Program-made: the position numbers and the translations under genes
Shown here: positions 1,980 to 17,230 of the stretch, piece after piece
Position numbering within the stretch: position 1 is the first letter of the stretch
Layout: each line of letters begins with the position of its first letter
Notes under the pieces: model-generated
What the model was told of the DNA's origin: nothing
Database searches by the model: none
What the model saw: only the letters and a program-made list of their open reading frames with translations
Source of the DNA: a virus
Strand: one strand, 5' to 3'
DNA length: 23,069 bases
Virus record (IMG/VR): IMGVR_UViG_3300020171_000714
Location: 1-23,069 of that record

Positions 1980-4900
1980 TTAGCTGCCGAGCAGCGGGAT
2001 CGTGTACCAGGTGGTCGCGTCATACGCGACGTAGGTGGCCGCCGTAAATGCCGCCAGCACGCCGTTCGCGTTGGCCGCGACCGCATTGATGGCATCGTCA
2101 GTGTTCGGCCACACCTTCAAGACAGCATTTGCGTTGTTCTTCACGATGCACACCAAGCCTGCGGCTGCAGCGGGGAGCTTGACGCCCTTAGTCGCGTCAG
2201 CATCGGAGACCAGCGTAAAGCCGGTCGTGATCGCAGCCGCGTTCGCTTGGGCATCGCCCGCAGCCGCCACGGTCGCTGTGGGGATGATCGGCATGGTGCT
2301 GAACGTCTTGGCTCCGGCGATGGTGGCCGCGCCCGCAGTCAGCACGAAGCTGGCCGTCGCCGCCCCTCCGTCCGGGATGGTCAGGGTGGTGGCCTGCCCC
2401 TGCGCGGCGTTCTTGATGGTCAGGGCCGTGTTGCCGGTATTCGCCACGGCCTGGATGTCCATGTAGCCACTGTCGGAGGTCAAGCCGTAGAGCCGCAGGG
2501 TATCGAAGCCGTTGGCGTCCGTCGCGTTCCTGCCGACGGTCAGCGCACCAGCCGTGGAGTTCAACCTCGCGGCCTCTGTGACATTACCGCCGGTCATCAG
2601 GCTAAGCACGAAGTCGCCATACTCCACCCCATTCGTGATGGTCACGGACACCGCATCCATCGAGCCCCACTCCTCGACGGTGCTGGTCCCGGTGGCGTTC
2701 TCCAACTGGAACGAGATACCGGCCCCGTCCGCCGCAGTCGCGTTGTTGTCGCTTGAGGAGTGAGTCAGGGCCAGGATATTGACCACTCCATCGGTCGTGT
2801 CATCGCTGGCCGCAGTCTGAACTGCCGTGAACGCATTTGCCAGTCCGAGGCCGGGCAGCGTACAGGTCGTCGCGGGCAGGGTGATCGTCGGTGTGCCCGC
2901 TGAGTTCTGGAGGGTCGTGGCTCCGGTCCCGGCGTCGATAGGCTTGATCTTGATGGAGCCGTTGGTGACACCGCTGAGTTGGATGTATCCGTCTCCGGCC
3001 GCCAGCGAGATGTTGTCGCCAGCCGCGATGGACAGGTCGCCGGTCACGGTAGTCGTGATGGAAGCGTGACCGATGGCCACGGACGCGGCGTTCGTGCCGC
3101 CGATGGTCATGGCCCCAGCCGTTCCAGAGCCCGCAGCGCCAGAGTCGATTGTCACGGCACCTGCCGTGCTACCGGCTCCGACCGCCGCTCCCGATGTGAT
3201 GCTGATGAGTCCGCCCGTCACCGCAGCCGCGCCCTTGGAGACGCCGCCCGCAACCGTCACGGCACCGCCACTGCCCACGGTGCTTAGAGCCGCCCCGCCG
3301 GTGACGGTGATTCCACCGCCAGTGCCCGTAGCGCCCGCGCCGGTGGCCCCGCCGATGAGGGTTGCCGCGCCGCCGGTCCCCGTGCCGAAGCCCGCCCCGC
3401 CGGTGACGGATGCCGCTCCGCCTGCGTTATTCGCGTCAGCGATTCCACCGGCAATCGTGACCGCGCCACCGTTGCTGGTGGCACCGCTCTTGCCAGTGAT
3501 AACGAACGTGGTGTCGTATCCAAGGAGACCTGACACAACTGGGTCGGCGGTAAAGGTGTTGACTCCAGCGATGGTCTGAGCGCCTTGGGTCAGCATGAAG
3601 GAAGCGGAGGCCCCGCCGTCGGGGATCGTGTACGTGCGGGCAGCCGCCTGCGAAGCGTTGGTAATCAAGGTGACGGAATCCGTGGCGCTGTTGGCCGCTG
3701 TGATCCGCAGGGTGCCGCTGGCCGTGGTTGCGGGGTGAATGTCGAGGCTGACCGCGTTGGCGTCGCCGCCGACTTGAAGCAGCTTCGCCCCACCCGCTCC
3801 GCCTTCGTCCGCATCGAAGCGGAACACGGTCGCCATTGTCCCGGCCACCCTGGACTGCAACAGCACGTCCGCGTCTACCGTCGCTCCGGCGGTCCCCACG
3901 TCAGTCACGATGGATTCGAGCGTGGTTTGCTCGGTCACGCCGTCGGAGTCCTCGACCTTGATCGAGATGCCAGCGCCGATATTGGCCGCAGCATCTCCAG
4001 TGGTCGAGTGGGACAAGGTGAGAACGTCCGTGGTCGCGTTGGTCGTCGCGTCGTCAATGGTCACAGCCTGCGCCGCCGAGAACGTATTCGCCAGCCCCAA
4101 TCCAGGGAGTGTGCAGGTTGCACTCGGCAGGGTAATCGTCATCGTCCCTGCCTGATTCGAGACGGTCGTGGTGTTCGTGCCCGCGTCGATGGGCAGAATC
4201 TTGATTGCGCCCGTGGTCTTGCCGTTCACGATGACGTAGCCCGTGTTGCTCGACCCGGCATTGATGGTCAGGATAGGCGTGGTGTGGCCTAGCGTGAGGG
4301 TCGTGAATGTGCCAGCCGCCGCCGACGCCGCGCCGATGATGGCCCCGTCAACGGACCCGCCGTTGATGTCCGTGGTCGTCACGGTCCCAAGGTTTGTCCA
4401 CGTCCCGGTGACGGTCGGGGTGGTGATCGTCACGGCCCCCGTCACCGTGCAGGCGTTGATGACCGGCGCGGTAAGCGTCTTGTTCGTGAGGGTGTCGGTC
4501 GTCGCCTTCCCGACGAGCGTATCGGTGGCGTCCGGCAGGGTGACAGTGCGAGTCGCAGTCGTGGTCGTGTTCGTGAGGGTGACAGTGTGGGCGGTGCCGC
4601 CCGTGGTCGTCTGCAACCGGAGGATGCCGGTCGTGTTGTCCGAGTCCACATCGTAGGTGTTGCTGGTCGTGCCGGAGGATGTTGCTACCGCCGCAATAGT
4701 GCCGCCCCCAGCCGCGTTGCTGTGGTCGTGGGTGGCACTCGTGAAGTCCGCGATGGTGGGGACGGTGATCGTCGGCGTGGTCATCGTCTTGTTCGTGAGG
4801 GTCTGAGCCAGGGCCGCATACACGAACGAATCGCTTCCGGTGGGGTCAGGGAAGCTCAGTGTGCGATTGGCGGTCCACGTAGCCGTGGCGGGCTGGAGCG

Positions 4901-5294
4901 TGAGGGTGTAGTTCCCGTCCGCGCTCGTGTTCGTGGCGATCTTCGTCTTCACGTCAGCGACGTTATCGCTATCGACCGTGAAGGACGCCTGCGTGGTGCC
5001 CGTCAGCGCAGTGTCGCTAAGGGTCACGCCTGTGAGGGCCAGAGTTCCGGCCCCCTTAGCGGCGATGGTCAGGTTGATGTCGGTGTCCGCCCCAACGGGC
5101 GCGATGGAGACGCCGCTGCCAGCGATGGCGTTCGTGACGCTGAGGTAGTTGACCGCCAGCGTTGGAGAGGCGATCCTGAGCTGCTCGGTCCACCCCTCGG
5201 ATGCGCTCCGACGGAAGCCCAATGCGAGCCGGGCGTTAGTGTTGTCCCACGCCCACCGGAAGGCACCGCGAAGCCAGTACTGTGAAGAAGCCAT
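1980..5294 (-). CDS. Large repetitive fibre or head-decoration protein (1104 aa)
   Basis: A 1104-residue, Thr/Ala/Gly/Val-rich, nearly Cys-free protein starting at 5294 with GGAG nine bases upstream. The first 45 residues (WLRGAFRWAWDNTNARLALG) look like an attachment domain. Two LTNKT motifs (near residues 166 and 269) match the 'TLTNKTLTxP' element common in phage tail-fibre proteins. Residues 358-581 and 777-1000 are copies of one another; both contain ITLP-ATCTLPGLGLAN and end with IPDGGA...SF-LT-GA-TIAG. Between them, residues about 600-735 are a Gly-rich run of GGA/TGG triplets with alternating short strands, like glycine-rich fibre domains. The C-terminal 100 residues are less repetitive and end in YDATTWYTIPLLGS. 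It sits directly behind the major capsid gene, so it may be a head fibre rather than a tail fibre. Several long opposite-strand frames here are composition shadows. Confidence 0.85.
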   Translation of the reverse strand: MASSQYWLRGAFRWAWDNTNARLALGFRRSASEGWTEQLRIASPTLAVNYLSVTNAIAGSGVSIAPVGADTDINLTIAAKGAGTLALTGVTLSDTALTGTTQASFTVDSDNVADVKTKIATNTSADGNYTLTLQPATATWTANRTLSFPDPTGSDSFVYAALAQTLTNKTMTTPTITVPTIADFTSATHDHSNAAGGGTIAAVATSSGTTSNTYDVDSDNTTGILRLQTTTGGTAHTVTLTNTTTTATRTVTLPDATDTLVGKATTDTLTNKTLTAPVINACTVTGAVTITTPTVTGTWTNLGTVTTTDINGGSVDGAIIGAASAAAGTFTTLTLGHTTPILTINAGSSNTGYVIVNGKTTGAIKILPIDAGTNTTTVSNQAGTMTITLPSATCTLPGLGLANTFSAAQAVTIDDATTNATTDVLTLSHSTTGDAAANIGAGISIKVEDSDGVTEQTTLESIVTDVGTAGATVDADVLLQSRVAGTMATVFRFDADEGGAGGAKLLQVGGDANAVSLDIHPATTASGTLRITAANSATDSVTLITNASQAAARTYTIPDGGASASFMLTQGAQTIAGVNTFTADPVVSGLLGYDTTFVITGKSGATSNGGAVTIAGGIADANNAGGAASVTGGAGFGTGTGGAATLIGGATGAGATGTGGGITVTGGAALSTVGSGGAVTVAGGVSKGAAAVTGGLISITSGAAVGAGSTAGAVTIDSGAAGSGTAGAMTIGGTNAASVAIGHASITTTVTGDLSIAAGDNISLAAGDGYIQLSGVTNGSIKIKPIDAGTGATTLQNSAGTPTITLPATTCTLPGLGLANAFTAVQTAASDDTTDGVVNILALTHSSSDNNATAADGAGISFQLENATGTSTVEEWGSMDAVSVTITNGVEYGDFVLSLMTGGNVTEAARLNSTAGALTVGRNATDANGFDTLRLYGLTSDSGYMDIQAVANTGNTALTIKNAAQGQATTLTIPDGGAATASFVLTAGAATIAGAKTFSTMPIIPTATVAAAGDAQANAAAITTGFTLVSDADATKGVKLPAAAAGLVCIVKNNANAVLKVWPNTDDAINAVAANANGVLAAFTAATYVAYDATTWYTIPLLGS
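2295..4223 (-). repeat. Internal duplication within the fibre gene
   Basis: Two roughly 224-codon modules of the fibre-like gene are homologous: 3552-4223 (residues 358-581) and 2295-2966 (residues 777-1000). Both read in order GxIKI-PIDAGT, then TxTITLP-TCTLPGLGLAN-F-A-QxA, then LTLSH/LALTHS, then GAGIS, and close with TIPDGGA-ASF-LT-GAxTIAG-xTF. They flank the Gly-rich section at about 3090-3495. The match is by eye at protein level; DNA identity is lower, so the duplication is not very recent. Confidence 0.75.
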
Positions 5295-5332: not shown

Positions 5333-5394
5333 GGTGAGGGGAGGAGCCCCACGCAGGAGCTCCTCACCCTCGCTACTGCCGCCCGAAGCAGTAA
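5333..5394 (-). promoter_or_regulatory. Two hairpins in the leader of the fibre gene
   Basis: The 144-bp gap between capsid and fibre genes holds two stem-loops upstream of the fibre start. The first pairs 5333-5347 (GGTGAGGGGAGGAGC) with 5359-5368 (GCTCCTCACC), giving ten pairs around a bulge. The second is TACTGC (5375-5380) with GCAGTA (5389-5394), and its loop consists mostly of the genome-wide repeated word CTGCCGCCCGAA. Neither is followed by a T-run, so they look like mRNA stability, processing or protein-binding elements rather than terminators. No convincing -10 box was found with the TTGACA at 5416-5421 (minus strand). Confidence 0.45.
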
Positions 5395-5419
5395 GCCGTG
5401 TGTGTCTTCACCAATTGTC

Positions 5420-5447
5420 AAAACCCAGGTACTTGTTATCAAGTACC
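5420..5447 (-). terminator. Probable intrinsic terminator overlapping the capsid stop codon
   Basis: On the minus strand a perfect 8-bp stem, GGTACTTG and CAAGTACC (5428-5447), has a 4-nt loop, followed after TGGG by TTTT (5420-5423). The TGA stop of the capsid gene (5439-5441) lies at the stem-loop junction. The T-run is short, so termination may be partial. That would suit a high-level capsid message with reduced read-through into the fibre gene. Confidence 0.5.
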
Positions 5448-6941
5448 GAGGCTGTTGTCCGTGCAGCCCGTGAGCAGAAGGCCACGAGTGTCGTTCATAA
5501 TCGTCTGCGTAATGAACAGGTAGGGGGCCTGTGCGCCGGTCGAAACGTAGCCGGTCGTGCTCAGCGTCGGCATCCAGATCGAGTCGAAGAACATAGGCCC
5601 GATCCACTGGACGTTCGAGAACGCGGCGGGAGACCGTCCGGGCGAGAGGCCGACGCCGCTCATCGCGGGCGGGCTGACCCGCTGGATGTTCCCGTTCGCG
5701 CGCTTGAACAGGACGAAGTGGCCCTTCGTGATGTACGGCGAAGTGTAGATCGTGTAGTCCTTGCCGTCATACGAGTACGAAGTGCCCTTGGCGAAGCCCA
5801 GCCGCAGCCGCAGGGGTTCGCCCTGCCGCTGGTAGGCGTTCCAGTTGTTCGTGGTCGGGTTGTCCAGCAGGTTGAGCAGCACCCCGCTTGACGTGAGTGC
5901 GGTGTCAGCCGCGCCCGACAGCGCCGCGTTGTACTGGTCGAGGTACTGATTCAGCACGCTCTCGGTCAGGTCGGCTGACACAGCGGCCACGATGGACGCC
6001 TTCTCCGGCGCGTTCGTGATGGACAGGTCGCCGAAGTTCGTCCCGTACAGTGTGCCGGACGCGATCAGCATGGCCTGATAGCCGCAGGGCATCCGCGAGT
6101 ACCCGGTCCCATTCGTCGAGATGCCGCCCCTGGGCACCAGCCACGCGAGCTGCCAGTTGGAGCTCGTGGAGAGAGTTGACAGGTCGGTGGCGTGGTCCAC
6201 GTACACGACGATGCTGGTCGTGCCGTTCTGGTAGTTGATGACGCCTGTAATCAGCACAAACGAGTTCGTGTTGACCTTGGCGAACGCGGACGAGTACACA
6301 TCCACGTACATGCCGGGCTTGAGTCGGCGGATTCGACCGTCCACGACGAGGTTCCCGCTCGCGGTCGTGACAGTCACGAGGCTCCCGCTCGCGGAGCACG
6401 TGCTGGCGGTGTTGAGCTGCGCCAGCCCGCCGCTCGTGTTCATGTACCACGTGCAGGCGTTCAGGTGCGCCAGCATCTCGATGTGCTTGCGCATGACCTC
6501 CGCAGGCTGATCGTTCAGCGCGGCGTCCAGCGCGTTCATCTGAAGCATGGACATCGGCAGCGTGATGTTGCCGTGCACCTGCGCCAGCTTGACCGAGTAC
6601 CTGCCGACCGTGGGGATCGCGGAGTCCCGCGCCCCAGGGAAGGAGGTCAGAGAGTTGATGATGTTCGTTCGGACAGTGGCCCCCGCCGTGTTCTCCAGCA
6701 GGCCGAGGGAGTCCGTCGATGCGTCGCCGGGGCCGGTCACGAAGATCGCGCCGCCCGCGAGCGAGCTCATGTAGTTCCAGTAAATCTTCCAGTCCTTGCT
6801 GATGGGGTCACGGGTGACACCCATCGAGGTCTCGATCATGTTCTCGAAGAACGGATCGTTCTCGATCAGCAAGTCCTGGATGCCGGGGGTGAGGCGCTCC
6901 TGGAAGGCGTTTGCCAGGGCCGCCATGTAGGTTGAGGACAT
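5439..6941 (-). CDS. Major capsid protein (HK97-fold likely)
   Basis: A 500-residue protein starting at 6941 with GGAG about eight bases upstream. Its place (portal, scaffold, then this gene), length and make-up fit a major capsid protein. The N-terminal region (ALANAFQERLTPGIQDLLIENDPFF) is an amphipathic N-arm and helix. Residues about 90-160 (RTNIINSLTSFPGARDSAIPTVGRYSVKLAQVHGNITLPMSMLQM) look like E-loop/P-domain, followed by a long helix (AEVMRKHIEMLAHLNACTWYMN). A beta-rich insertion with a strand-turn pattern (residues about 190-260) and a late mixed domain follow. Residues 415-470 (KGHFVLFKRANGNIQRVSPP...) resemble the closing A-domain strands. It has its own promoter upstream and a terminator at its end, consistent with high expression. 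The fold assignment is inferred from context and needs a profile search. Confidence 0.8.
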   Translation of the reverse strand: MSSTYMAALANAFQERLTPGIQDLLIENDPFFENMIETSMGVTRDPISKDWKIYWNYMSSLAGGAIFVTGPGDASTDSLGLLENTAGATVRTNIINSLTSFPGARDSAIPTVGRYSVKLAQVHGNITLPMSMLQMNALDAALNDQPAEVMRKHIEMLAHLNACTWYMNTSGGLAQLNTASTCSASGSLVTVTTASGNLVVDGRIRRLKPGMYVDVYSSAFAKVNTNSFVLITGVINYQNGTTSIVVYVDHATDLSTLSTSSNWQLAWLVPRGGISTNGTGYSRMPCGYQAMLIASGTLYGTNFGDLSITNAPEKASIVAAVSADLTESVLNQYLDQYNAALSGAADTALTSSGVLLNLLDNPTTNNWNAYQRQGEPLRLRLGFAKGTSYSYDGKDYTIYTSPYITKGHFVLFKRANGNIQRVSPPAMSGVGLSPGRSPAAFSNVQWIGPMFFDSIWMPTLSTTGYVSTGAQAPYLFITQTIMNDTRGLLLTGCTDNSLGT

Positions 6942-6983
6942 CGTTTGTCTCCAAGCAGGGGGCTGCCGCTACGCAACAGCCGC

Positions 6984-7011
6984 ACTATACAGTTCCAGTC
7001 CGCTATGTCAG
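6984..7011 (-). promoter_or_regulatory. Sigma70-like promoter for the capsid gene
   Basis: In the 116-bp gap between the scaffold-like and capsid genes, the minus strand reads CTGACA (7006-7011), a 16-bp spacer, then TATAGT (6984-6989). Each box is one base from consensus. Transcription would start about 35 bases before the capsid ATG (6941). This would let the capsid gene be transcribed independently of the long late message. The spacer is one base short of optimum. Confidence 0.55.
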
Positions 7012-7057
7012 AGACTCGCGGTGCCCACGGGCTCGGTTGGAAACTTGCGGTTGCGGT

Positions 7058-8059
7058 CTACTTTCGCAGCCCGGCCGCCATGTTTCGCCGAATGGACTCC
7101 ATGAAACTCTGCGTCCAGCGAGGATCGCTTATCGAAAAGCGCTCCCCGCCGGGTTGCCCCGCCGGACGGTTTGGCGAGGCTCCGGCAACTGGTCCTGCGC
7201 TTGGAGCTCCGGCATAACCACCCAGGGCTTCCGCCGCGCCTCCCCCTATCGAGGGAAGCCCGCCAGCAGCCAGGATGGTCGCCAGATCGTCCTGGGGAGA
7301 GTCGTTGGCCGGTTTCGGTTGCCGGGCGTAGGGCCTCAACTCCTGAAGCACTTCTACGACCAGCTCCGGCTTGAACTCCTCTCGCTCGATGACAACTCGG
7401 CGCTGAACCTCTCGGCGAGCGAGTTTGGAAAGCCGCGCCCGCTCGTCCTTATCTACTATCTTACCCAAAACCGGGTCGGTGTCAAGTGAATTATCAATCA
7501 CTTGAAAGATTTTCTCGCGGGCCTCCTGCGCGTCCCGGAGCTGCGTCTGCTCGACCGCTCTCCTGACTTCGGGCGGCAGATTCTCCATTGTGACCGGCGC
7601 GGGCGGTGGAGCTGCCTGTTGTCCGGCCCCCGGTTGGGCTGCCGGAGCGGGCTGGCTGGCGGCCTTGATCTGCGCGATGGTCTGCGCGTCGAGCGGGGGC
7701 TGGCCGGTCATCACCTGCAACTCGTTCATGGCCTGAATCCGCTGGTCGATGGGGACCGCTTCATTCCTGGCCTGCCCCATGAGCTCCCAGGCGCGGACGG
7801 CCTGCTCGTTCGAGTGGCGCTGCTCGGCGGCGAGCCGCATGTTCTCATCCGCCCCGCCGGACTTCTCGGCGGCCTGGATAAGCTCGGCCTCTGTCATCGT
7901 CCGCGTCTGCCCCTTCACCGTGACCACGTAGGTCTTCGGTTGGGCGGCAGGACTGGGGGTGGGAGCCGCAGCCGGGGCGGGAGCAGGCTGTACAACGGGG
8001 GCCGGTGCAGCGGGAGTGGCGGGATCGGGATTCGGGGCGGCAGTGTTGGGCTCGGTCAC
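7058..8059 (-). CDS. Scaffold-like protein
   Basis: A 333-residue protein with a GTG start at 8059, preceded by AAGGAG seven bases upstream. It lies between portal and major capsid genes, the usual place of the scaffold. The N-terminal 42 residues are almost entirely Pro/Ala/Gln. A charged helical core follows (residues about 45-110, including the ordered TEAELIQAAEKSGGADENMRLA), then a Pro/Ala/Gln linker (about 130-155). A second helical segment spans 158-250 (EVRRAVEQTQLRDAQEAREKIFQVIDNSL...RLSKLARREVQRRVVIEREEF). The basic C-terminus (WTQSFMESIRRNMAAGLRK) would fit capsid binding, as in known scaffolds whose C-terminal helix contacts the shell. No protease motif is seen. The function is inferred from position and architecture. 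Confidence 0.7.
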   Translation of the reverse strand: MTEPNTAAPNPDPATPAAPAPVVQPAPAPAAAPTPSPAAQPKTYVVTVKGQTRTMTEAELIQAAEKSGGADENMRLAAEQRHSNEQAVRAWELMGQARNEAVPIDQRIQAMNELQVMTGQPPLDAQTIAQIKAASQPAPAAQPGAGQQAAPPPAPVTMENLPPEVRRAVEQTQLRDAQEAREKIFQVIDNSLDTDPVLGKIVDKDERARLSKLARREVQRRVVIEREEFKPELVVEVLQELRPYARQPKPANDSPQDDLATILAAGGLPSIGGGAAEALGGYAGAPSAGPVAGASPNRPAGQPGGERFSISDPRWTQSFMESIRRNMAAGLRK

Positions 8060-8567
8060 GGCGTGTCTCCTTGTTGGTTAGAGGTTGTCGGCCACCTTGT
8101 GCGGCCAGCAGTTGCTGAATCATGTCTCTTTTCTTCGCTTGGTATTTTTTGCTTGCTGCACCTATCTTGATAAGGGTCTCTGCACTGTGCTTGTGGCCTG
8201 GATGATCCGCACACCACCGCTTTCGGGACACACTCATCTTTGCGCGGGTCGTTGTAGTATGATGAGTGCCAGTCCTAGCGATGCGCATCTTGAGCAGAGC
8301 TCCCGCATCGTGCCTCCTCCCTGTGTGGTGTAGGATAGTGTGCTCTGCGTTGGACATGCACAGGAGGTTTTCAAGGTTGTCGTTCAGTGGATTGCCGTCT
8401 CGATGATGCACTACAAAACCCTCTGGCACCGGACCCTCAAACGATTCCCATATAATGTGGGACACATGATGCTGTCTACCGTTGAGTCCCACGTGCCAGT
8501 GTTCGTGGTCCACTCGCCCCCGCACTCCTTGAAGGGCTGGAACGCCGCATGTTTCCATTGTATTCAT
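7845..8567 (-). CDS. HNH homing-type endonuclease inserted between portal and scaffold genes
   Basis: Starts at 8567, three bases after the portal stop. Residues about 35-85 carry an HNH signature (HVSHIIWESFEGPVPEGFVV followed by HHRDGNPLNDNLENL and then an EH pair). Residues about 88-155 contain two NUMOD3-like DNA-binding segments (RAKMSVSRKRW; HSAETLIKIGAASKKY). Such free-standing genes nick DNA and spread by homing. The DNA here is visibly more AT-rich than both neighbours. No stop occurs before the scaffold start, so the frame runs about 215 nt into the scaffold gene. The last 70 or so residues look like a shadow of that gene (Arg/Gly/Cys/His-rich). It may have lost its own stop on insertion, and the functional protein probably ends near residue 160. 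Confidence 0.85.
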   Translation of the reverse strand: MNTMETCGVPALQGVRGRVDHEHWHVGLNGRQHHVSHIIWESFEGPVPEGFVVHHRDGNPLNDNLENLLCMSNAEHTILHHTGRRHDAGALLKMRIARTGTHHTTTTRAKMSVSRKRWCADHPGHKHSAETLIKIGAASKKYQAKKRDMIQQLLAAQGGRQPLTNKETRRDRAQHCRPESRSRHSRCTGPRCTACSRPGCGSHPQSCRPTEDLRGHGEGADADDDRGRAYPGRREVRRGG

Positions 8568-8570
8568 AAA

Positions 8571-10766
8571 TTACCTGCCTCCGGCTGAAAGTATGGCGCG
8601 CATCATATCAGGAGGCATCCCGCCGGGCATGGGCATCGAGCCGGGAACGGGGCCGGGGCCGGGCATGGGCATCGGCATCCCGCCACGGTCGCCGCCCGGA
8701 GCTATCATCGAAGCGGCGAGTTCGGGCGGCAGGCCCGCGAGATTCTCATTCGGGTTCTGCTGCGCTTCGGCTGCCTCCACGGAAGCCTGGGCCGCGTCCT
8801 CCATCGGGGGCAGCGCATTCGGGATCGCTCCCCGTAAAGCACGGACATCCTGCAATCGGGCGGCGAACTTCTGCTGGACCTCCGGGCTGGCCAGCGAGAA
8901 CTCCGGGGACGACATGCGGGCGAGCAGGACGTACTCGTGGACGGCGGGGATGTCGTAGTCGGACGAGAAGCAGGGGCCGGGCGTCTGGCCGTCGCCGAAC
9001 ATCAGGACCGAGTTGATGACGGCCCGCATGTAGTTCTGCCACTCGACCTCGTTGCCGGTGGGGAGGCCGAGATTCTCTTTTCGGTTGATGAGCCGGAACT
9101 CGCGGGCCGTGATGATGCCGCCTTTCAGCTCTTCCGCGAGCTGGCCTATCCGCTTGTCCTTGTCCACCGGCTCCTTCGAGCGGATCGTGATGACCACGTC
9201 GAACGGGTCCGGCACCGCGTTGTCCTGCAAGCTCATCTCGCCGGTGGACGGATCGAACTTCAGCCCCACAACCACGTCATCCAGCATGGAGGTCGTGTTG
9301 ACCTTCACGGACGGCCAACGCTTCGTGTTCCAGAGAATCGCCCTATACAGGTCGCCGAACATGGTGGCCAGCCCCATCGCGGGTCCGCCGAGGGAGACGG
9401 TCGAGGTCTGGTACAGGATGTCTATGCCTTTGGCCGACTCGACGCGGCCCGGAGCCCCGCCGGACATCAACTCGGTCGGCTGACCGGCCAGCTTGTCAGT
9501 GAGCTGGATTCCGAGCTGGGCGATGCGGCCCGGCAGCTCGCCGGAAGTGACGGGCTGAATGGCCTGTACGCGCGCGTCGGGCAGGGACGGGTCCGGGCGA
9601 TACGAGAATATCCGTCTGCCCGGCTTCGCTTCTTCGAGTGCATCTCGCGGGATGCCCCAGCCTTCGGGGTAGAACAGGTAGCCGAACTGGTCGAGGTCTT
9701 GGACGTTCCTGAACAGTGCCATGAACATCGACTCGACTTCGGCGTTCAGGGTCACGAGCGGCCCGACGAACGAGCGCCCGTAGAACCCCAAGCCGCCCGT
9801 GTACACGGTCTTCGAGATGGGCATGACCGGCTTCGGGCCTTCCTTCGGGCGGTCCTTCCCGTCGAAGTCCACGTCCACGATCAGGCACTTCCCGGCCATC
9901 ACGATGTAGCGCGCGAGTCTGCGGGTCTCGGACGGAACCCATATTTCAGAGAGTTGAACGTGGGCCGTCTCGGTCTTGTTCGGGGACTTCGGGGACGTGC
10001 CGCCGTGCATGGACAGCGACCGGGTGATGCTCGCGGCTATCGGGTTCGGCGCAATCGGCGCGACTGGCGAGCCATCCATCGTGACGTACTCAGGCGTGAC
10101 TTCCACGGCCATCAGGTCCGAATCCTGAACGCCCGGTAGGGTGAACTTCTTGTCCCCGACCGAGATGCCGTCCTTCAACCAGTCGTAGGAGACCCAGCGC
10201 TGGCGGACCATCCCGCGAACGGCGCTATCCGACATCGGATTAGCTGGTAAGGGAAGCAGCTCCCACGGGGGCACCACGTCTATCACATGCGATGTCTGGC
10301 CCTTTTCGCGGCCCTCACCCACCTCCCACACGCACCCGCCGACCGTCCCGTACATCGGAAGTGTCTGGCAGACTTCAAGCTTGATGGAGTCCAGCGGGAG
10401 AGCGCGAGCGGCGTTGTCGAGCAGGACGTGGGCGACCGCCGCGTTCCTGGCGGTCATCAGCCCCATGCCGCCGCGCTCGACGGACGGCCACAGGTCCAGC
10501 CGCATGAGCCGCCCGACCTCATCCGCATATCGGCGAAGGATGTCCTCGTACCGGAATGGAAGATGTCCGAATGTGTCCTCGTAGAACGCTGTAACGGACC
10601 CCGACTTGTAATCGACCGACTCGAAGAAGCGCGCTCCGCGAAGGTAATGATACGAAACGTACCACTCAATCGCAAACGGGATGCGGTATCGCTTCGAGTC
10701 CTCCATCATGCGCCACAGGACTTCGCGGAGAGTGTCGCCGTCTTTCGGGAGTTTCATAAAACTCAT
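8571..10766 (-). CDS. Portal protein
   Basis: A 731-residue protein. The ATG at 10766 is chosen over an in-frame GTG at 10826 because GGAGG lies nine bases before it and the ATG overlaps the stop of the microprotein (ATGA). The portal forms the ring through which TerL pumps DNA. Supporting evidence is position directly after TerL, length similar to large podovirus-type portals, and typical segments. These include an N-terminal helical region (WRMMEDSKRYRIPFAIEWYVSYHYLRG), a wing region with DVVPPWELLPLPANP near residues 165-185, and a long section with GRSFVGPLVTLNAEVESMF and LGIQLTDKLAGQPTELMSGG (stem and clip region). The C-terminal 70 residues are Pro/Met/Gly-rich and probably disordered (MPMPGPGPVPGSMPMPGG). 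The 400-residue frame on the opposite strand is a shadow. Confidence 0.85.
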   Translation of the reverse strand: MSFMKLPKDGDTLREVLWRMMEDSKRYRIPFAIEWYVSYHYLRGARFFESVDYKSGSVTAFYEDTFGHLPFRYEDILRRYADEVGRLMRLDLWPSVERGGMGLMTARNAAVAHVLLDNAARALPLDSIKLEVCQTLPMYGTVGGCVWEVGEGREKGQTSHVIDVVPPWELLPLPANPMSDSAVRGMVRQRWVSYDWLKDGISVGDKKFTLPGVQDSDLMAVEVTPEYVTMDGSPVAPIAPNPIAASITRSLSMHGGTSPKSPNKTETAHVQLSEIWVPSETRRLARYIVMAGKCLIVDVDFDGKDRPKEGPKPVMPISKTVYTGGLGFYGRSFVGPLVTLNAEVESMFMALFRNVQDLDQFGYLFYPEGWGIPRDALEEAKPGRRIFSYRPDPSLPDARVQAIQPVTSGELPGRIAQLGIQLTDKLAGQPTELMSGGAPGRVESAKGIDILYQTSTVSLGGPAMGLATMFGDLYRAILWNTKRWPSVKVNTTSMLDDVVVGLKFDPSTGEMSLQDNAVPDPFDVVITIRSKEPVDKDKRIGQLAEELKGGIITAREFRLINRKENLGLPTGNEVEWQNYMRAVINSVLMFGDGQTPGPCFSSDYDIPAVHEYVLLARMSSPEFSLASPEVQQKFAARLQDVRALRGAIPNALPPMEDAAQASVEAAEAQQNPNENLAGLPPELAASMIAPGGDRGGMPMPMPGPGPVPGSMPMPGGMPPDMMRAILSAGGR

Positions 10767-10852
10767 GGCTTGAATCCTCCGTGTGGCGGCCTGTCGCCGA
10801 AGACCACCCACAGGAATATCGCGCACACCACTATGACGATCAAGTACGTCAT
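10763..10852 (-). CDS. 29-residue single-pass membrane microprotein between TerL and portal genes
   Basis: A 30-codon reading frame fits exactly between two head genes. Its ATG (10850-10852) overlaps the TerL stop as ATGA, with GAGG six bases upstream inside the TerL gene. Its TGA stop (10763-10765) overlaps the portal ATG as ATGA. The protein begins MTYLIVIVVCAIFLWVVFGD and continues with a Pro/His/Gly-containing polar tail. Residues 4-18 are a hydrophobic segment long enough for one membrane pass. The double stop-start overlap is strong evidence that it is translated. The function is unknown: a holin-like or membrane-docking peptide is possible, or a coupling peptide whose main role is to carry ribosomes from TerL to the portal start. 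Confidence 0.7.
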   Translation of the reverse strand: MTYLIVIVVCAIFLWVVFGDRPPHGGFKP

Positions 10853-12795
10853 CTTTGCCTCATTCGGGCGGCAGGTGGTCGGTGAACGCCGGGAAGCTGA
10901 ACGCGCCCGCCAGTGACCGGCGTGTACAGCGTATCGGTGCCTGCTCGATTATACCGCTCGCGGGTACTGTGAAGCGAGGAAAATCGGCTGCGGGCAGCCG
11001 TGGATTTCTGGAGCTCCTCGCGCCGGACCATGAACTTCTGGAAGACCTCCAGCGGCACCCGCGAGACATCCAGGCCCGCGAGTATCGGAAGGCCGGTCTG
11101 CGGGTCGGTCGTCTGCCCGTCCGCCAGAAGGTCAAGCACGTCCTTCGCCAGTCCTTCGGGATAAGCGTCCACGTCCCCTGTCGCGTAGACGCGCGGGACG
11201 TAGGGGACCATCGCCAGCATGTCAAGCGCGTCGTCGTGCGGCAGGGACAATCCATCCGGCGTGAACAGGTTGAACTCCCGCCACAGCTCGGACCACGGGA
11301 ATCCAGCGTTCCTGGTCTTCGCGGGGAGCCGGATTCTGCCGCCCGAAGCACGAGGAGCAAGCGCCGTTATGCGGTCTTCCTTCGACAGCGCGTGCGGATA
11401 ACGAATAGGCCAGACAGCTCGCGGGCTCCAGATGGCCGCTGGGTTCTCGTTCTTCATTCGAGACTCAAGCCACTGGCGGAAGTAGTCCTGGCCCCCGACC
11501 GACTCGATGCCGACGAGCGAGGGCTGCCAGCGGACGCCCATCTGCCACACCTCGGACATCAGCCGCTCAGCGGCGCATCGTCCAAGAAAGAGATCGAGCA
11601 CCCACCAGGCGTTGTCCTTGTCGATGCCAACACACATCGCGCCGCTGAAGTCCGATATAGCGGACACGCGGTGCAGGAGGTCAACGATGATGAGCTTGCC
11701 GAGCCCGTTGAGCCACTGGGCATAGGGCTCGGTGTGTCGCTCGGCGTCTTCGGGGTTGACGGATGAGGGAGTGTGCCACGTGACAGCATCGGCGGCATCG
11801 GAGACCTCGTAGGTGTTGAACAGCGGGTGAAGGTTGAAAATGCGTTCCTTGTCGGAGATGGGGTTGCCCTGCATCTCGGCCTCGAACGCGATGTCGCCGA
11901 GTTCCTTGCGGCGGACATCCAGCCAGCCGGAGTCCCACTTCTCCGGCCAGAACAGAAGCGAGTGGCCCGCTTCGTCTGTTCGGGCGGCAGAGAACACCCG
12001 GCGGTTGTAGAACTCGAAGCGGGGGTCTTGGCCGGAGATCGCCCCGTACAGGGCCGAGCGGCAGTTGATGAGGGTGCCCACCCACTCGAATATCTGATCG
12101 TCGGAGTCCAACATCGGGATAATCTGACTGAACAGCAGGGAGTCGAGCTGGTCCCGCAGGATGGTCTCCGAGCCGGGCTTCTTCGGGTCGTACTCCGGGT
12201 CGTCGAGTATCACGAAGTCGGGGCGAGCGCCTCGCTTTCGGGAATCAACGGATGTGAGCCTGAGCATCGAGCCGTTGAGAAGCTGCATCATGGACAGGGA
12301 CCACTTGCGTCCCGTGGACTTCGGGGGCTTGAGCTGGCCGAAGTCGTCAACGATGTACTTGTTCTCGTCAAGGGCCTGCTGGAGCTGGGTGCCGCGAAGC
12401 TCGGCCTGCTCCTTCGCGGAGAGCACGAGCATCCCGACCGAGAACGGCCACGTCAGCGACAGCAGCAGCGGAATCTCAAGCCCGATCACCGTGGACTTGG
12501 CCGAGCCCCGTGGAGCGACGTGGATGTTGCGGCCATACTCGCCCATGTCACGGACCATCACGTAGTGGGCCGGAGGTGACGGCAGCTTCCGCTTGTAGAA
12601 GACGCCCTCCGGCAGCGGGTCCAGATAGGTCGAGCGGAAGAATAGCCACGAGTTCACGAAGTCCTGGGCAGTCGCTCTCTGGCAGCAGGCATTGATGCGA
12701 GCCAGCCGTTGCCCCTCTTTCGAGAGGGTGGGGTAATCAGGCGGCAAGGGAGCCCAGCGATTGCCCTCTCGTGGGATCGCTCGGACGGTCGGCAT
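10849..12795 (-). CDS. terL: Large terminase subunit (DNA packaging ATPase and nuclease)
   Basis: Powers DNA packaging and cuts concatemers. The frame is open from 12879, but the ATG at 12795 is preferred because it follows the previous stop (12812) by 16 bases; that gives 648 residues. From this start, Walker A is APRGSAKST near residues 94-102. Walker B is VILDD near 195-199, followed by PEYDPKKPGS. The C-terminal nuclease half shows a first acidic residue in GAMCVGIDKDNAWWVLDL, then LVGIESVGGQDYF, and a final HDDALDMLAM, matching the RNase H-like fold of terminases. The C-terminal 60 residues are basic. Its stop overlaps the microprotein start. The gene contains two copies of the repeated 12-mer inside it and one at its 3' end. 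Confidence 0.95.
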   Translation of the reverse strand: MPTVRAIPREGNRWAPLPPDYPTLSKEGQRLARINACCQRATAQDFVNSWLFFRSTYLDPLPEGVFYKRKLPSPPAHYVMVRDMGEYGRNIHVAPRGSAKSTVIGLEIPLLLSLTWPFSVGMLVLSAKEQAELRGTQLQQALDENKYIVDDFGQLKPPKSTGRKWSLSMMQLLNGSMLRLTSVDSRKRGARPDFVILDDPEYDPKKPGSETILRDQLDSLLFSQIIPMLDSDDQIFEWVGTLINCRSALYGAISGQDPRFEFYNRRVFSAARTDEAGHSLLFWPEKWDSGWLDVRRKELGDIAFEAEMQGNPISDKERIFNLHPLFNTYEVSDAADAVTWHTPSSVNPEDAERHTEPYAQWLNGLGKLIIVDLLHRVSAISDFSGAMCVGIDKDNAWWVLDLFLGRCAAERLMSEVWQMGVRWQPSLVGIESVGGQDYFRQWLESRMKNENPAAIWSPRAVWPIRYPHALSKEDRITALAPRASGGRIRLPAKTRNAGFPWSELWREFNLFTPDGLSLPHDDALDMLAMVPYVPRVYATGDVDAYPEGLAKDVLDLLADGQTTDPQTGLPILAGLDVSRVPLEVFQKFMVRREELQKSTAARSRFSSLHSTRERYNRAGTDTLYTPVTGGRVQLPGVHRPPAARMRQR

Positions 12796-12811
12796 GGACT
12801 TGGGTCCAACA

Positions 12812-13546
12812 CTAGCCAGTGGGAGTCTCCGTCTTCGCTTGTTCGGGCGGCAGAATGACGGGGGGCGCGAGTGGGCCACCCGGAGTGCCGGGGGCCGGAA
12901 CGGGGACCACCTGCATCCCCTGGGCGAACAGCGAGTAGACGATCAGGGACAGCACGAAGGAAGCGGTGTCGGCGGACCTGTTCAAGTCGATGGTGGCAGG
13001 CTTGACGCCCATGCCGTTCAGCAGCACGGCAGTCATGGCGACGATGCGCGGACCCTGCGAGTTGGCGATGAACTCGGTGAGCTTCAAGAGCTCGTCATGG
13101 CTTTCCCGTGGCCACATCGACAGGGGCTTCATCCCCTTCATGGACGACACGGCGTTCAGTGTCCGTAACACCCGCCGCCTGTCCATCTTCTTCCACCACT
13201 CCGGGGCCTGCGGTGCGGGCGGCTTCGGCTCCGGGGACAGGTTCCCCTCCGGCGGAAACGGGAGCTGGGGTTGTGGGGGTAAGGGGGCCGTCAACGGCTC
13301 GGCGGACGGAGAGGAGGCCGGAGAGGAAGGGGTTGGAGTCGGGGCCGGTGGTGATGGCGACTCCGGTGGGAGCACGAACGGGAGGACGCGCTGGCGGCTC
13401 TCGGACGGACTCGAACGGGGTGCCACGGAAGGTGGTGCGGCCACGGGGTCCACCGGCGAGACCGGAGGAGGCGCGCTGGGTGGGGGCGGCGTGATGAGAG
13501 CCCTCTTCGTCAGCGGTAGGGGCTTCGGGCGGGGTGTCGTTTCCAT
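12812..13546 (-). CDS. Unknown protein with Pro-rich N-terminus, upstream of TerL
   Basis: A 244-residue protein with GGAG eight bases before the ATG at 13546. Residues 1-118 are dominated by Pro, Ser and Ala, with almost no hydrophobic core. From residue 119 it becomes ordered (WWKKMDRRRVLRTLNAVSSM, ESHDELLKLTEFIANSQGPRIVAMTAVLLNGMG). A hydrophobic stretch SFVLSLIVYSLFAQGMQVV near residues 192-210 could be a buried or membrane helix. The Pro-rich part lies entirely within the 3' part of the preceding gene in another frame, an overlap of 452 nt. The ordered part is mostly free of overlap. I do not recognise the family. Position before TerL would suit a terminase partner or packaging accessory factor. 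Confidence 0.65.
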   Translation of the reverse strand: METTPRPKPLPLTKRALITPPPPSAPPPVSPVDPVAAPPSVAPRSSPSESRQRVLPFVLPPESPSPPAPTPTPSSPASSPSAEPLTAPLPPQPQLPFPPEGNLSPEPKPPAPQAPEWWKKMDRRRVLRTLNAVSSMKGMKPLSMWPRESHDELLKLTEFIANSQGPRIVAMTAVLLNGMGVKPATIDLNRSADTASFVLSLIVYSLFAQGMQVVPVPAPGTPGGPLAPPVILPPEQAKTETPTG

Positions 13547-14054
13547 CGGTGCTCTCCTGTAATAGGGGTTGTGAAGGGCCGGGTGAGTTCATGCGGCGGA
13601 CGACGGTGGCCATCCGCTCGACGGTGATCGTGCCATCTTCCGCCTGGACGGTGACGCGGGACGACATGGGGGCGATGTCCCCGTGGAGCAGCATGGCTTT
13701 GTTGGCCAGCTCGTGGAGGGACTTCGCGGCCATCATCCGAATACGAGGATCGAACGCGTCGTCCTTGGCGATGTCGGTGTACAGACGAACTTCGGCGAGC
13801 ACGGTCCACTCGCCAGCCGAAAAGCCCTGCTCGATCATGGTCGGGTTGATGAACGAGCGGAGCGAGGGCAGCGAGTCTTCCAGGGTCGCCAAGTCGCCGA
13901 ACGAGTCTCCTAAGCCGTCGGGCGGGTAGGCTGGGTCCGCCTCCGCGAGTTGAGAGCGGATTGGAAGGCCCTGATTCACGACAAGCGACAGGGCCTCCGA
14001 AGCGGACGGTCGAACGCGGTGGACGGCGGCCAGCGGAGTATCGGGTTCACTCAT
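13095..14054 (-). CDS. Unknown protein of the packaging module
   Basis: A 319-residue protein starting at 14054, overlapping the previous stop by ATGA. Residues about 15-160 are an ordered alpha-helical region. They include DSLPSLRSFINPTMIEQGFS, TVLAEVRLYTDIAKDD, RIRMMAAKSLHELANKAMLL and a short strand pair SRVTVQAEDGTITVERMA. The second half (from about residue 170) is low-complexity, rich in Pro, Ala, Gly, Glu and Arg, and overlaps the next gene by 452 nt in a different frame. A helical bundle followed by a disordered tail and its position upstream of TerL would fit a small terminase or related adaptor, but no motif confirms this. The frame has no earlier stop, so the overlap is real unless there is a sequence error. 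Confidence 0.65.
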   Translation of the reverse strand: MSEPDTPLAAVHRVRPSASEALSLVVNQGLPIRSQLAEADPAYPPDGLGDSFGDLATLEDSLPSLRSFINPTMIEQGFSAGEWTVLAEVRLYTDIAKDDAFDPRIRMMAAKSLHELANKAMLLHGDIAPMSSRVTVQAEDGTITVERMATVVRRMNSPGPSQPLLQESTDGNDTPPEAPTADEEGSHHAAPTQRASSGLAGGPRGRTTFRGTPFESVREPPARPPVRAPTGVAITTGPDSNPFLSGLLSVRRAVDGPLTPTTPAPVSAGGEPVPGAEAARTAGPGVVEEDGQAAGVTDTERRVVHEGDEAPVDVATGKP

Positions 14055-14584
14055 TGGATGTTGTCCTCTTGTTCAGGGGCGTCGGTGGGGGGCTCCGCTT
14101 GTCCGGCCCCCGTCGTGGGATCGGATTCGGGATCGGGCGGCGGGGGAGCGAGGGCGGCTATGTCGGATGAGGCGGTGGAGCGGAGAAGGCGACCGACGCG
14201 ACCAGCCAAGAAGCGGGTGCGGGTCTGCAACAGGCGGGAGTAGATGTCGATGGCGTGGGCGGCCACCTTCAAGTCAGGGAGAACGTGCCTGCGGGACTTG
14301 GCCTTGCCGCGAGCGATGTCGGAGCATCCGGGGGCATTGACATCCGGCTTGCCGGGAGAAGTCAGGACGATCAGGGCCACCTCGAACGCGGACTCGTGAA
14401 AGTAGGAGTTCTGGCCCACCCGGACGATGGGGACTCGAAGGGCGTGGAGCCACCGATGGAAGGAGTTGGTGGTGATGCCCCACGTGCGGGCTGCGTCCAC
14501 GACCGAGCGAAGCGTGGACAGCAGGCCGACCGGGATGGCGACTGGCGGCTGTCCGGCGGGCGGTTGGGGGGTCTCGACCTGCAT
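14051..14584 (-). CDS. HTH DNA-binding protein, possible small terminase subunit
   Basis: A 177-residue protein. The ATG at 14584 is chosen because the promoter's -10 box ends six bases before it, so the upstream in-frame ATG at 14674 could not be in this transcript. Residues about 25-75 look like a helix-turn-helix with wing (VVDAARTWGITTNSFHRWLH, then VPIVRVGQNSYFHESAFEVAL). A basic helical part follows (RGKAKSRRHVLPDLKVAAHAID, RTRFLAGRVGRLLR, residues about 95-145) and then an acidic Pro-rich tail. First gene of the leftward structural operon, two genes before TerL. This fits a small terminase recognising the packaging site, but a late-gene regulator is an equally fair reading. The message would be leaderless, with no ribosome-binding site. 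Confidence 0.75.
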   Translation of the reverse strand: MQVETPQPPAGQPPVAIPVGLLSTLRSVVDAARTWGITTNSFHRWLHALRVPIVRVGQNSYFHESAFEVALIVLTSPGKPDVNAPGCSDIARGKAKSRRHVLPDLKVAAHAIDIYSRLLQTRTRFLAGRVGRLLRSTASSDIAALAPPPPDPESDPTTGAGQAEPPTDAPEQEDNIQ

Positions 14585-14590
14585 GATGGG

Positions 14591-14619
14591 ATTATACGCG
14601 CGAACAGGGTGGAGTGCAA
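14591..14619 (-). promoter_or_regulatory. Leftward promoter of the structural operon (leaderless start)
   Basis: On the minus strand, TTGCAC (14614-14619), a 17-bp spacer and a perfect TATAAT (14591-14596). The ATG of the HTH gene begins seven bases past the -10 box, where transcription should start. The mRNA would therefore have little or no 5' leader. Confidence 0.75.
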
Positions 14620-14667
14620 GGGAATAATCGAAAGAGGAGAAGTTTTTCTTCGGGCGGCAGATTTCTG

Positions 14668-14696
14668 TTGACACGGAGCCGGGTTTCGGGTAGGAT
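14668..14696 (+). promoter_or_regulatory. Rightward promoter of the RepA-like gene
   Basis: Perfect TTGACA (14668-14673), a 17-bp spacer, then TAGGAT (14691-14696). It is divergent from the structural promoter, with the two -35 boxes 48 bp apart. A copy of the TTCGGGCGGCAG word (14649-14660) lies between them. Expected transcription start is about 14703. Confidence 0.7.
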
Positions 14697-14702
14697 ATCG
14701 GC

Positions 14703-14794
14703 AGAGGTCATGGATGTTGACTCCGCGAACCAACTTGGCCCCCACCCCCCGTGCACCCCTGCCCCTCAGCATCGGTGACCTCTCACGGGGGGTG
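14703..14794 (+). ncRNA. Structured leader with interlocked inverted repeats (pseudoknot-like)
   Basis: The expected transcript start coincides with AGAGGTCA (14703-14710), which is perfectly complementary to TGACCTCT (14776-14783). CACCCCCCGTG (14743-14753) is perfectly complementary to CACGGGGGGTG (14784-14794). The order A-B-A'-B' is that of an H-type pseudoknot, with A' and B' directly abutting so the 8-bp and 11-bp stems could stack. Loops would be 32 and 22 nt. The element ends 20 bases before the RepA-like ATG. It could control translation or be a DNA operator pair instead. Confidence 0.5.
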
Positions 14795-14814
14795 TCGGGG
14801 TCTTTGGTGATAGC

Positions 14815-15888
14815 ATGATGGAGTTCAAGCCAGTGTTGGAGCGTATGTCTGATGTGAAGGAGAGGCGACCGGAGTGGTTGTGGCGGGGACGGTTCCCGCT
14901 CGCGGCCTTCTCGATGATTGTGGGAGACCCAGAACAGGGGAAGAGCTTGCTGACGAAAAGGATTGCGGCCCACGTGACGACAGGGGCGAATTGGCCGGAT
15001 GGATCGCCCTGCCCGAAAGGGAGCGTGATTATCATTACGAGCGAGGAAACATCGGACGTGGAACTGGCTCCTCGATTGAGGGTGGCGGGTGCGGACCTGA
15101 CGAAAGTGATGAGGCTCAGGGGATTCGAGCCAGTGCAGGGGGGAGACGTGAATCCGATAGACATGACCAGAGCGTGCTTGGAGATGGTGGAAGAAGCGGT
15201 TAGAGGAATGGGGGACGTGAAGTTGGTGATCGTGGACCCTATCTCGGCGTTCATGGGGCCGGACACGAACTGCAACACGAACGAGCAGGTGAGGATAGTG
15301 CTGGGGGCAGTATCTACTTTGGCGGAGACATACGGGGTGGCGATCATAGGGATCAACCACCTGAGCAAGAACGCGGACAGGGCGGCGTTGGCTCGGAGCC
15401 TTGGGAGCACGGGGTTTGTGGCGCACGCGCGGGCGGTGTGGTTTGTGGGCCGCGATCCGAGGGCACCGGCGGAAGGGGACGACGGGGGCCGGAAGTGCCT
15501 TGTGAGGGGGAAGAACAACTGGGCGAAGTACGTGGATGCACTTGCGTTTACGATCATGTCTGCACCGGCTCCTGATGGCGAAATCCCCGTGATCGCGTGG
15601 GGGGAGGTATTCAAGACGACGGACAACGCGGTGCTGGGGACGAGCCTTGTGGGGATGGGCAGCAGGGGACGGCCTCCAGCCAAACGGCAAAACGCGGAAG
15701 CGTGGTTGGCCGAGACACTGAAAGAGGGAAGTGCCTTGGCACTGGTGGTGGAGGAGGCGGCTGAGGAGGCGGGAATCAGCATACGAACGCTGGCCAGGGC
15801 GAAGAAGGACTTGGGGGTTGCGTCGGTGAAGGGGGTGGACGGGTGGAGGTGGGAAATGCCAAAAGAGGGGGCAAGGGCGCCAGAATGA
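14815..15888 (+). CDS. RepA-like AAA/RecA-fold ATPase (replicative helicase type)
   Basis: A 357-residue protein. Walker A is GDPEQGKS (residues 37-44), preceded by the strand AAFSMIV. The acidic strand SVIIITSEET follows near residues 70-79. Walker B is KLVIVDP followed by ISAFMG near residues 135-146, then IIGINHLSK with a polar residue after the strand (near 176-184). This is the order of AAA_25/RepA-like hexameric ATPases of plasmids and phages. The last 70 residues look like a winged helix (LVVEEAAEEAGISIRTLARAKKDLGVASV, then a W-rich wing), a DNA-binding tail often seen on these proteins. ATG 14815 is used; ATG 14818 has better spacing from the weak GGTGA at 14806. Adjacent iteron-like repeats support a role in replication initiation or as loader/helicase. 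Codons are G-ending with AGG arginines, unlike the head genes. Confidence 0.85.
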   Translation: MMEFKPVLERMSDVKERRPEWLWRGRFPLAAFSMIVGDPEQGKSLLTKRIAAHVTTGANWPDGSPCPKGSVIIITSEETSDVELAPRLRVAGADLTKVMRLRGFEPVQGGDVNPIDMTRACLEMVEEAVRGMGDVKLVIVDPISAFMGPDTNCNTNEQVRIVLGAVSTLAETYGVAIIGINHLSKNADRAALARSLGSTGFVAHARAVWFVGRDPRAPAEGDDGGRKCLVRGKNNWAKYVDALAFTIMSAPAPDGEIPVIAWGEVFKTTDNAVLGTSLVGMGSRGRPPAKRQNAEAWLAETLKEGSALALVVEEAAEEAGISIRTLARAKKDLGVASVKGVDGWRWEMPKEGARAPE

Positions 15889-16071: not shown

Positions 16072-16320
16072 ATGGCCGGGATGAAAATGACGGTGGCGGA
16101 GCACTTGAGGCTGGGGCTGATCCTCCAAGCGGTCCATCAGACGGTTCAACACGAGCTACTCGTTCCGCTGAACACATACCCGAAGGGGTCTAAGGCGGCA
16201 CGAGACTGCCATCGCTTGGGGCGGGCCTTCGTTGAGTTGCGGTGTGAAATGGACAAGGTGGCCTGTCGAGACCACCCGGAGGAGTTCGACGTGAAGTGGT
16301 ACTATCCGGGTTTAGGGTAG
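16072..16320 (+). CDS. Small hypothetical protein downstream of the origin-like region
   Basis: An 82-residue protein starting at 16072 with an AAAGAGA-type site about eight bases upstream; Met4 is an alternative start. It is helical and charged: residues 4-35 (KMTVAEHLRLGLILQAVHQTVQHELLV) form a probable amphipathic helix. A second helix spans about 42-63 (SKAARDCHRLGRAFVELRCEMD), with a terminal DVKWYYPGLG. No membrane segment. I do not recognise a family. As the second gene of the rightward unit it may assist the RepA-like protein, but this is position only. No terminator was found after it. Confidence 0.7.
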   Translation: MAGMKMTVAEHLRLGLILQAVHQTVQHELLVPLNTYPKGSKAARDCHRLGRAFVELRCEMDKVACRDHPEEFDVKWYYPGLG

Positions 16321-16538
16321 CAGCCGGGGGATGTCAAGGGGTAAGCCACGTCTATGCAACCAAAAGGCGGGTGGACTCATGTGTGTAAGTCCTGGGAAGC
16401 GGGCAATTTACGGGGGCCGGGAAAATCGAAGGAGAGTCAAGTATCACATAACTCGGAGCTCCCTGGGGGGACATAGGGGTGGGTCTGGCTTAGAAAAGGA
16501 CACACGGACACACAGACATCCATACATCTATACAGAAT

Positions 16539-16615
16539 GAAAGGACAAGAGACTATCCCTTATAACAGCAAGAGATACAGAAGAAACAACAGACCGAAAG
16601 GATAAGAGACTATCC
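16539..16615. repeat. Direct repeat GAAAGGAYAAGAGACTATCC
   Basis: Two 20-bp copies, 16539-16558 and 16596-16615, differ at one base (C or T at the eighth position) and are 57 bp apart, in non-coding DNA. They could be protein-binding sites or remnants of a duplication. Confidence 0.75.
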
Positions 16616-16663
16616 GGATGGCGCGGCGCGGGACGGCGGCCCCGCGCTCCACGGCCGCTCGCC

Positions 16664-16733
16664 AATAGAATACAACTTACCCATCTTATCGTGCTTCGAA
16701 TAGAATACAACTCGTACATCTTACCACGCTTAC
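16664..16733. repeat. Tandem 35-bp repeat beginning AATAGAATACAACT
   Basis: Units at 16664-16698 and 16699-16733 share 14 identical first bases, then CATCTTA at the same offset and a GCTT near the end. On the minus strand each unit offers TAAGATG and TTGTATTC boxes, which could be operators or weak promoter elements pointing left. Confidence 0.65.
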
Positions 16734-16858
16734 CCTGGTCCCTCACGCCCACCGTCCATTCCCTTGCTACCCCGATCCGGCCGCGCTCGCGCTTCCCCTT
16801 GTCATATCGCTTTCCCTCTACATGATACCCGCTATCACATCGCTTCCCCTCCGCGCAT

Positions 16859-16885
16859 AAAAAGACCGTATCCCGTGATACGGTC
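16859..16885 (-). terminator. Intrinsic terminator of the leftward operon
   Basis: On the minus strand, GACCGTATC (16877-16885), a 4-nt loop, GATACGGTC (16864-16872) and then TTTTT (16859-16863). The 9-bp stem is perfect. It lies 36 bases past the stop of the last leftward gene (16921), so it ends the operon that enters from the right edge. Confidence 0.85.
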
Positions 16886-16920
16886 CTGCAGCGCCCTTTT
16901 CTACGTCCTTCGGCGCGCTT

Positions 16921-17169: not shown

Positions 17170-17189
17170 GCCCAGCTCCTTGTAGTTGC

Positions 17190-17222
17190 GGGAAGCGCTG
17201 TTAGTTACCTCCAGCGCTTCCC
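17190..17222. repeat. Perfect 11-bp inverted repeat between two genes
   Basis: GGGAAGCGCTG (17190-17200) and CAGCGCTTCCC (17212-17222) flank an 11-nt spacer, filling most of the 61-bp gap upstream of the 82-residue gene's ribosome-binding site. There is no T-run, so it is more likely an operator for a dimeric DNA-binding protein or an mRNA-processing or stabilising hairpin. Confidence 0.8.
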
Positions 17223-17230
17223 TTGTCCGC

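Follow-up and report, generated by a model that had tools for sequence, protein, structure and literature searches.

Dispersed, lineage-specific DNA words in an undescribed phage family and their likeness to uptake sequences

Introduction

The uptake sequences of two bacterial families are the closest described systems to the repeated words analysed here. Uptake sequences are characterised by copy numbers in the hundreds to thousands on the host chromosome, by a gain in DNA uptake, and by binding to a ComP-like receptor of the type IV pilus. The DUS of Neisseriaceae are asymmetric words of 10-12 bp that occur as a large excess of exact copies on both strands, in dialects that differ between relatives. 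Their density is one per 400-1100 bp (PMC7371117). Phages of Pasteurellaceae accumulate the uptake signal of their host, the USS, and the USS-rich phages are mostly temperate (PMC6776037). An even spacing of USS has been claimed by some authors and disputed by others, and inverted repeats amount to about 10% (PMC1939737). These phages carry the 9-bp word of the host at 160-540 per Mb in both orientations; the Haemophilus phages HP1, HP2 and Aaphi23, which served as the positive control in this work, carry it at 395-540 per Mb.

Two other kinds of dispersed sites are also relevant. Known Chi sites have 5-8 bp and are short directional words selected on DNA, which act per strand. Cluster A mycobacteriophages have stoperators, asymmetric sites of roughly 13 bp that occur many times in a single phage genome.

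The phage family of the window

The window, which means the whole stretch of 23,069 bases that was analysed, is a virus record of 23 kb and belongs to an undescribed phage family. The terminase large subunit (TerL) was the marker used to find this family. Single-query searches with the TerL, portal and helicase of the window returned no viral relatives, and a search of 50,697 phage records found nothing related to its portal or to the structural protein beside it; profiles based on TerL found eight relatives in IMG/VR, labelled B (G066), C (G065), D (G075), E (G076), F (G080), L232, L233 and L234. Identity to the relatives over long matches is 29-37% for TerL and about 28-37% for the portal. 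Since the large relatives have 43-57 kb, the window is probably a fragment of a larger genome. Features are collected in Table 1. GC skew on the plus strand of the window is extreme from 16200 to 23069 (about -0.25 to -0.52) and flips at about 16.2 kb; this region holds four or five long minus-strand ORFs, none of which matches Pfam.

Table 1. Genes and word copies of the window, with the portal gene of one further record; for word copies the strand is that of TTCGGGCGGCAG
Feature	Position	Strand	Assignment or setting
Tail- or fibre-type protein, 1104 residues	1980-5294	-	Low complexity, internal repeats; no PHROG match
Word copy 1	5376..5387	-	Between the end of ORF 5439-6941 and the start of ORF 1980-5294, in the leader of this long repetitive tail-type gene
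Structural protein, major capsid candidate by position only	5439..6941	-	26-28% to B, D and L232
Word copy 2	7568..7579	+	Within ORF 7058-8059 (-); LPPE in that frame
HNH_3 endonuclease	7845-8567	-	Amid structural genes; possible free-standing homing endonuclease
Portal protein	8571..10826	-	Named from gene order and family; 31% to B over 630 residues
Word copy 3	8721..8732	+	Within portal gene (-); LPPE
Terminase large subunit (TerL)	10849..12879	-	PHROG 38, E 2e-53
Word copy 4	10863..10874	+	Final codons of TerL (-); AAR
Word copy 5	11336..11347	-	Within TerL, opposite orientation; SGGR, variable protein position
Word copy 6	11979..11990	+	Within TerL; SAAR, variable protein position
Word copy 7	12842..12853	+	3' end of ORF 12812-13546 (-), LPPE; overlaps 5' extension of TerL ORF
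Word copy 8	14649..14660	+	Between divergent genes (about 14622-14814) if ORF 14051-14674 starts at an internal ATG; the placement rests on this inferred start codon
AAA_25 ATPase, helicase-like	14815..15888	+	Pfam E 1e-30; PHROG primase/helicase families
Portal of L225 (not TerL)	5538-7535 of L225

The repeated word of the window

The 12-mer CTGCCGCCCGAA / TTCGGGCGGCAG is present in eight exact copies in the window, TTCGGGCGGCAG lying six times on the plus and twice on the minus strand, and a recount returned every copy that the initial annotation had listed. Inspection of all eight likewise bore out that they fall in various reading frames and in non-coding DNA. Exact copies are confined to 5.4-14.7 kb, and elsewhere in the window only mismatched forms are seen. 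The flanks of the copies are unrelated, so that what they share is the 12 bp only, plus a weak T before CTG in five of the eight. The 9-mer core GGGCGGCAG has 16 copies, 13 of them on the plus strand, against a shuffle mean of 1.3. The word CTGCCGCCCGAA was not found in the literature searched.

Chance or codon usage, for example through repeated LPPE peptides, would be one source of such a word, and copies 2, 3 and 7 do give LPPE in assigned genes. Dinucleotide shuffles of the window contain on average 0.01 copies of the 12-mer. The codon-preserving shuffle that had been proposed as a check, in which synonymous codons were permuted within 15 ORFs with proteins and codon counts kept and intergenic DNA shuffled too, gave a mean of 0.19 copies and a maximum of 2 in 300 runs, and the top count for any 12-mer across 100 codon shuffles was 4. 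Since eight copies are observed, the excess is real and comes neither from codon usage nor from the choice of the best word. These shuffles, together with the conservation of words in relatives and the recurrence of the same phenomenon with other words there (both below), refute an origin by chance or codon usage, whose probability is negligible.

The word of the window is thus real and selected as DNA, and the earlier proposal of selection on the DNA, for a Chi-like or recognition word, is supported: codon shuffles fail to give it, and the words of relatives are conserved far beyond their surroundings. The two copies inside TerL (5 and 6) lie at variable positions in the alignment with other terminases, which fits a word that arises at sites where the protein tolerates it.

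Other words in the relatives

The word of the window is absent from all eight relatives, and with one mismatch allowed a single copy is found, in E (L232-L235 included). The enrichment in close relatives that had been suggested as a check is therefore missing for this word, yet other words of the same kind are enriched there: most relatives carry a word of their own, at similar density and with different letters. B has 47 copies of CCCAGTGACG in 56.9 kb, C has 22 copies of CTCTCCCGA in 49.4 kb, with a longer form ACTCTCTCCCGAT, and E has 43 copies of CCTCCGCAG in 42.7 kb. The E word also occurs in L233 and reaches 30-57 copies in each large member of the E subclade. The short fragments L234 and L232 carry GCAGAGACA (six copies) and GCCCCCCACGA (four copies). 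The words of the relatives occur on both strands and in every frame, at a density of 347-1155 per Mb, a range that includes the density of USS in the control phages. Poisson tails under an order-3 Markov model range from 2e-7 to 1e-90, the weakest three being those of L232-L234, whose words were picked from the same few kb as were tested. In the other lineages, each of these words is missing or close to background. The dialect of the window was seen in this record only: an extended 15-mer scan across viral contigs gave background only, and the inverted pair of the word was found in no viral stretch.

D and F lack a clear dispersed word. An apparent word of D was rejected, as it equals an 18-bp tandem repeat; nine such repeats, CCCACTACGACCCAGG(C/T)T, stand in tandem at record position 40124-40276 (L238). 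F (L242) has, in a 3-kb stretch at about 2.3-5.3 kb, repeats of TGTTACTCC on one strand, preceded by a CATTG-like element, and these repeats look like control sites rather than a dispersed word.

Placement and conservation of the words

The words of the relatives lie in coding DNA at about the coding fraction, in all frames, sense and antisense. In the E clade they have no preferred position along genes (117 sense and 121 antisense words, with the duplicates V203 and V205 still included). The orientation bias first reported stands for the window, with six of eight copies, but is not general, as the relatives are near 1:1 (22/21 in E, 18/29 in B).

These placements bear on the possibility that the words are sites of a phage repressor dispersed over the genome, like the stoperators. 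The word of the window is asymmetric, has about 12 bp, lies six of eight times in one orientation and several times near gene ends, and many asymmetric sites over one phage genome are the common property of both. Nevertheless, the orientations in relatives are about equal, their words are found inside genes as often as the coding fraction predicts and without a preferred position, the words are not tied to gene junctions or to the direction of transcription, and one of them, that of E, is also carried by an unrelated phage (below), which makes dispersed repressor sites very improbable.

Viral contigs were also scanned for inverted pairs of the E word, which yielded further members of the E subclade. 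Between diverged phages of this subclade, 50-72% of the words at matching positions are kept, against 3-11% of other 9-mers (18/25 vs 11%, 9/18 vs 4%, 8/11 vs 4% and 5/9 vs 3%), in comparisons that share genomes and hence are not independent of each other, although they are independent of how the records were found. This indicates purifying selection on the DNA word in the E subclade. The window has no close relative, and its word probably behaves like those of the relatives. A small mobile sequence, which had also been proposed, is not supported, since only a short word is common to the copies, and within conserved genes of the relatives it occupies corresponding sites.

Strand rule

In the E clade, words on the same strand repel each other (within 800 bp they are about half as frequent as expected, at 2-3 kb slightly in excess), convergent neighbours are enriched to about 600 bp and divergent neighbours depleted (V203 and V205 included in this spacing analysis). 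The distances of convergent and divergent neighbours still differ without the distance range of the scan (P 2e-6, V203 and V205 included). These two records match E at 98-100% and were left out of the later strand analysis as non-independent. In E and L233, which are not finds of the pair scan, there are within 1 kb 21 convergent pairs against 11.4 expected, seven divergent against 11.4 and nine same-strand against 21.3. B agrees (15 convergent against 9.1, 10 same-strand against 19.5), and so does the same-strand result of C, with numbers too small to judge alone. HP1, HP2 and Aaphi23, a set of three with few words in which HP1 and HP2 are near relatives of each other, have neither same-strand repulsion (13 vs 11.3) nor a convergent excess (4 vs 5.8).

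The strand rule suggests a reader that acts directionally on DNA. Lineage-specific directional words, about 2 kb apart per strand and in convergent pairs, might belong to a phage or host reader that is neither a known uptake system nor Chi, a tentative reading that is somewhat unlikely.

A related possibility is that a protein encoded by the phage reads the word, for replication priming, packaging, or marking or organisation of the genome, and that word and reader co-evolve in the family. The strand-specific spacing of about 2 kb and the convergent pairing suggest such a directional reader, and in the unbiased scan for inverted pairs of the E word most dense records belonged to one subclade, whose members have many genes in common although their GC content ranges over 42-56%. 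The same word in an unrelated siphovirus speaks against it, and no candidate gene for the reader was found; there is no obviously common replication protein, because the window and B have the AAA_25 ATPase and V210 a D5-type primase. A reader of the phage's own is rather unlikely, yet a serious rival of the uptake reading discussed below.

Sharing of the E word and search for a host

The E word also occurs 3-6 times in each of three fragments of 6.4-6.9 kb (L252, L260, L262), none of which has a gene in common with the phage family by tblastn. L262 encodes a lambda-gpE-type capsid and is an unrelated siphovirus. L252 and L260 are nearly one virus over 4.2 kb, and where L260 aligns with L262 the identity is about 80% and all five aligned words are kept. 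L262 has six E words, one pair of which is the reason it was found, so that the independent excess is four words against 0.08 expected. The E word in an unrelated siphovirus suggests a mark at the level of the host. Outside this small siphovirus, nearly all dense records of the E word come from a single phage subclade; V220 (eight E words vs 1.3 expected, GC 60%) was judged too weak as a further carrier.

Among 84,980 genomes, which may not include that of the host, the inverted pair of the window's word was found in 14 scattered genomes, none of them dense, the densest having 22 copies in 5.3 Mb; a scan for pairs misses moderate densities. Two Chloroflexota genomes (G009 and G010) have 22 and 13 copies in 5.3 Mb against two copies of the reversed control in each, a mild enrichment that is far below the phage density. 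The 12-mer of B occurs at most three times per genome in 121 Chloroflexota genomes. The inverted pair of the E word turned up nowhere in samples from the class of Cedecea (369 genomes), the phylum of Hymenobacter (158) and the class of Pseudorhodoplanes (142), again in scans blind to moderate densities; for every dialect but that of the window the genome samples are small. No literature was found that ties CCTCCGCAG to uptake.

A Chi-like word would stop or redirect an end-processing nuclease of the host in one orientation, and copies on both strands would protect and recombine the phage DNA. Sharing at the level of the host is compatible with this, and so is the avoidance on the same strand in E and B, with each strand covered, as if one signal per stretch and strand sufficed. 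However, the exact cores of 9-12 bp exceed the length of known Chi sites, the simple model does not predict the enrichment of convergent pairs, the genomes of relatives lack an orientation bias, and no host dense in the window's word came out of the scan of 84,980 genomes. A Chi-like function is unlikely, though likewise a serious rival.

Comparison with uptake sequences

The present words resemble uptake sequences in length, density, strand balance and dialects. As for DUS and USS, the excess is large, affects both strands and extends over coding as well as non-coding DNA, found here in phage DNA only, and phages carry the word, namely a subclade of the family and one unrelated siphovirus. 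By inspection, CTGCCGCCCGAA of the window matches ATGCCGTCTGAA at 9 of 12 positions. However, the 10-mer DUS GCCGTCTGAA is absent from the window, B and E, the DUS core CTG before GAA is CCG in the word of the window, and the strand rule is not a described property of DUS. The USS AAGTGCGGT is absent from the window, and the Haemophilus-type phages do not follow the strand rule. In both comparisons the present words differ in being known from phages and not from a known host. As no host copies were found in the genomes scanned, and as uptake and its receptor are putative, the words are not filed as members of DUS or USS.

The favoured explanation, with a probability of about 40%, is that the word is a DUS/USS-like dialect of an unsampled competent bacterial host. 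The word would be a short directional DNA recognition mark belonging to the bacterial host lineage of the phage, and phages of such a host would be selected, or driven by repeated recombination, to bear it about once per 1-3 kb. The host would recognise the word, and this recognition would presumably serve DNA uptake. The excess beyond codon usage, the lineage words at similar density, the purifying selection in one subclade, the word common to two unrelated phage types and a density like that of USS in Haemophilus phages all support uptake marks. Against them stand the genomes scanned, among which no word-bearing host was found, the concentration of dense E-word records in one subclade (the small siphovirus aside), the same-strand repulsion and convergent pairing that the three Haemophilus-type phages lack, and the lack of an integrase among 34 scanned proteins of E (G076) and V210 (G210), where USS-rich phages are mostly temperate (PMC6776037).

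If the words are uptake marks of hosts, self-recognition by DNA words would extend to one or more bacterial lineages outside the two well-described families, with many dialects, and phage genomes would offer a means of finding such marks and of matching phages to hosts. Otherwise the words would be a genome-wide directional code in phages, under strong selection and with a measurable spacing rule. Both readings yield concrete sequences for testing.

The proteins of E and V210 that were scanned include several DNA methyltransferases, an EcoO109I-type restriction enzyme, a D5-type primase/helicase, a uracil-DNA glycosylase and a SLOG/DprA-like match.
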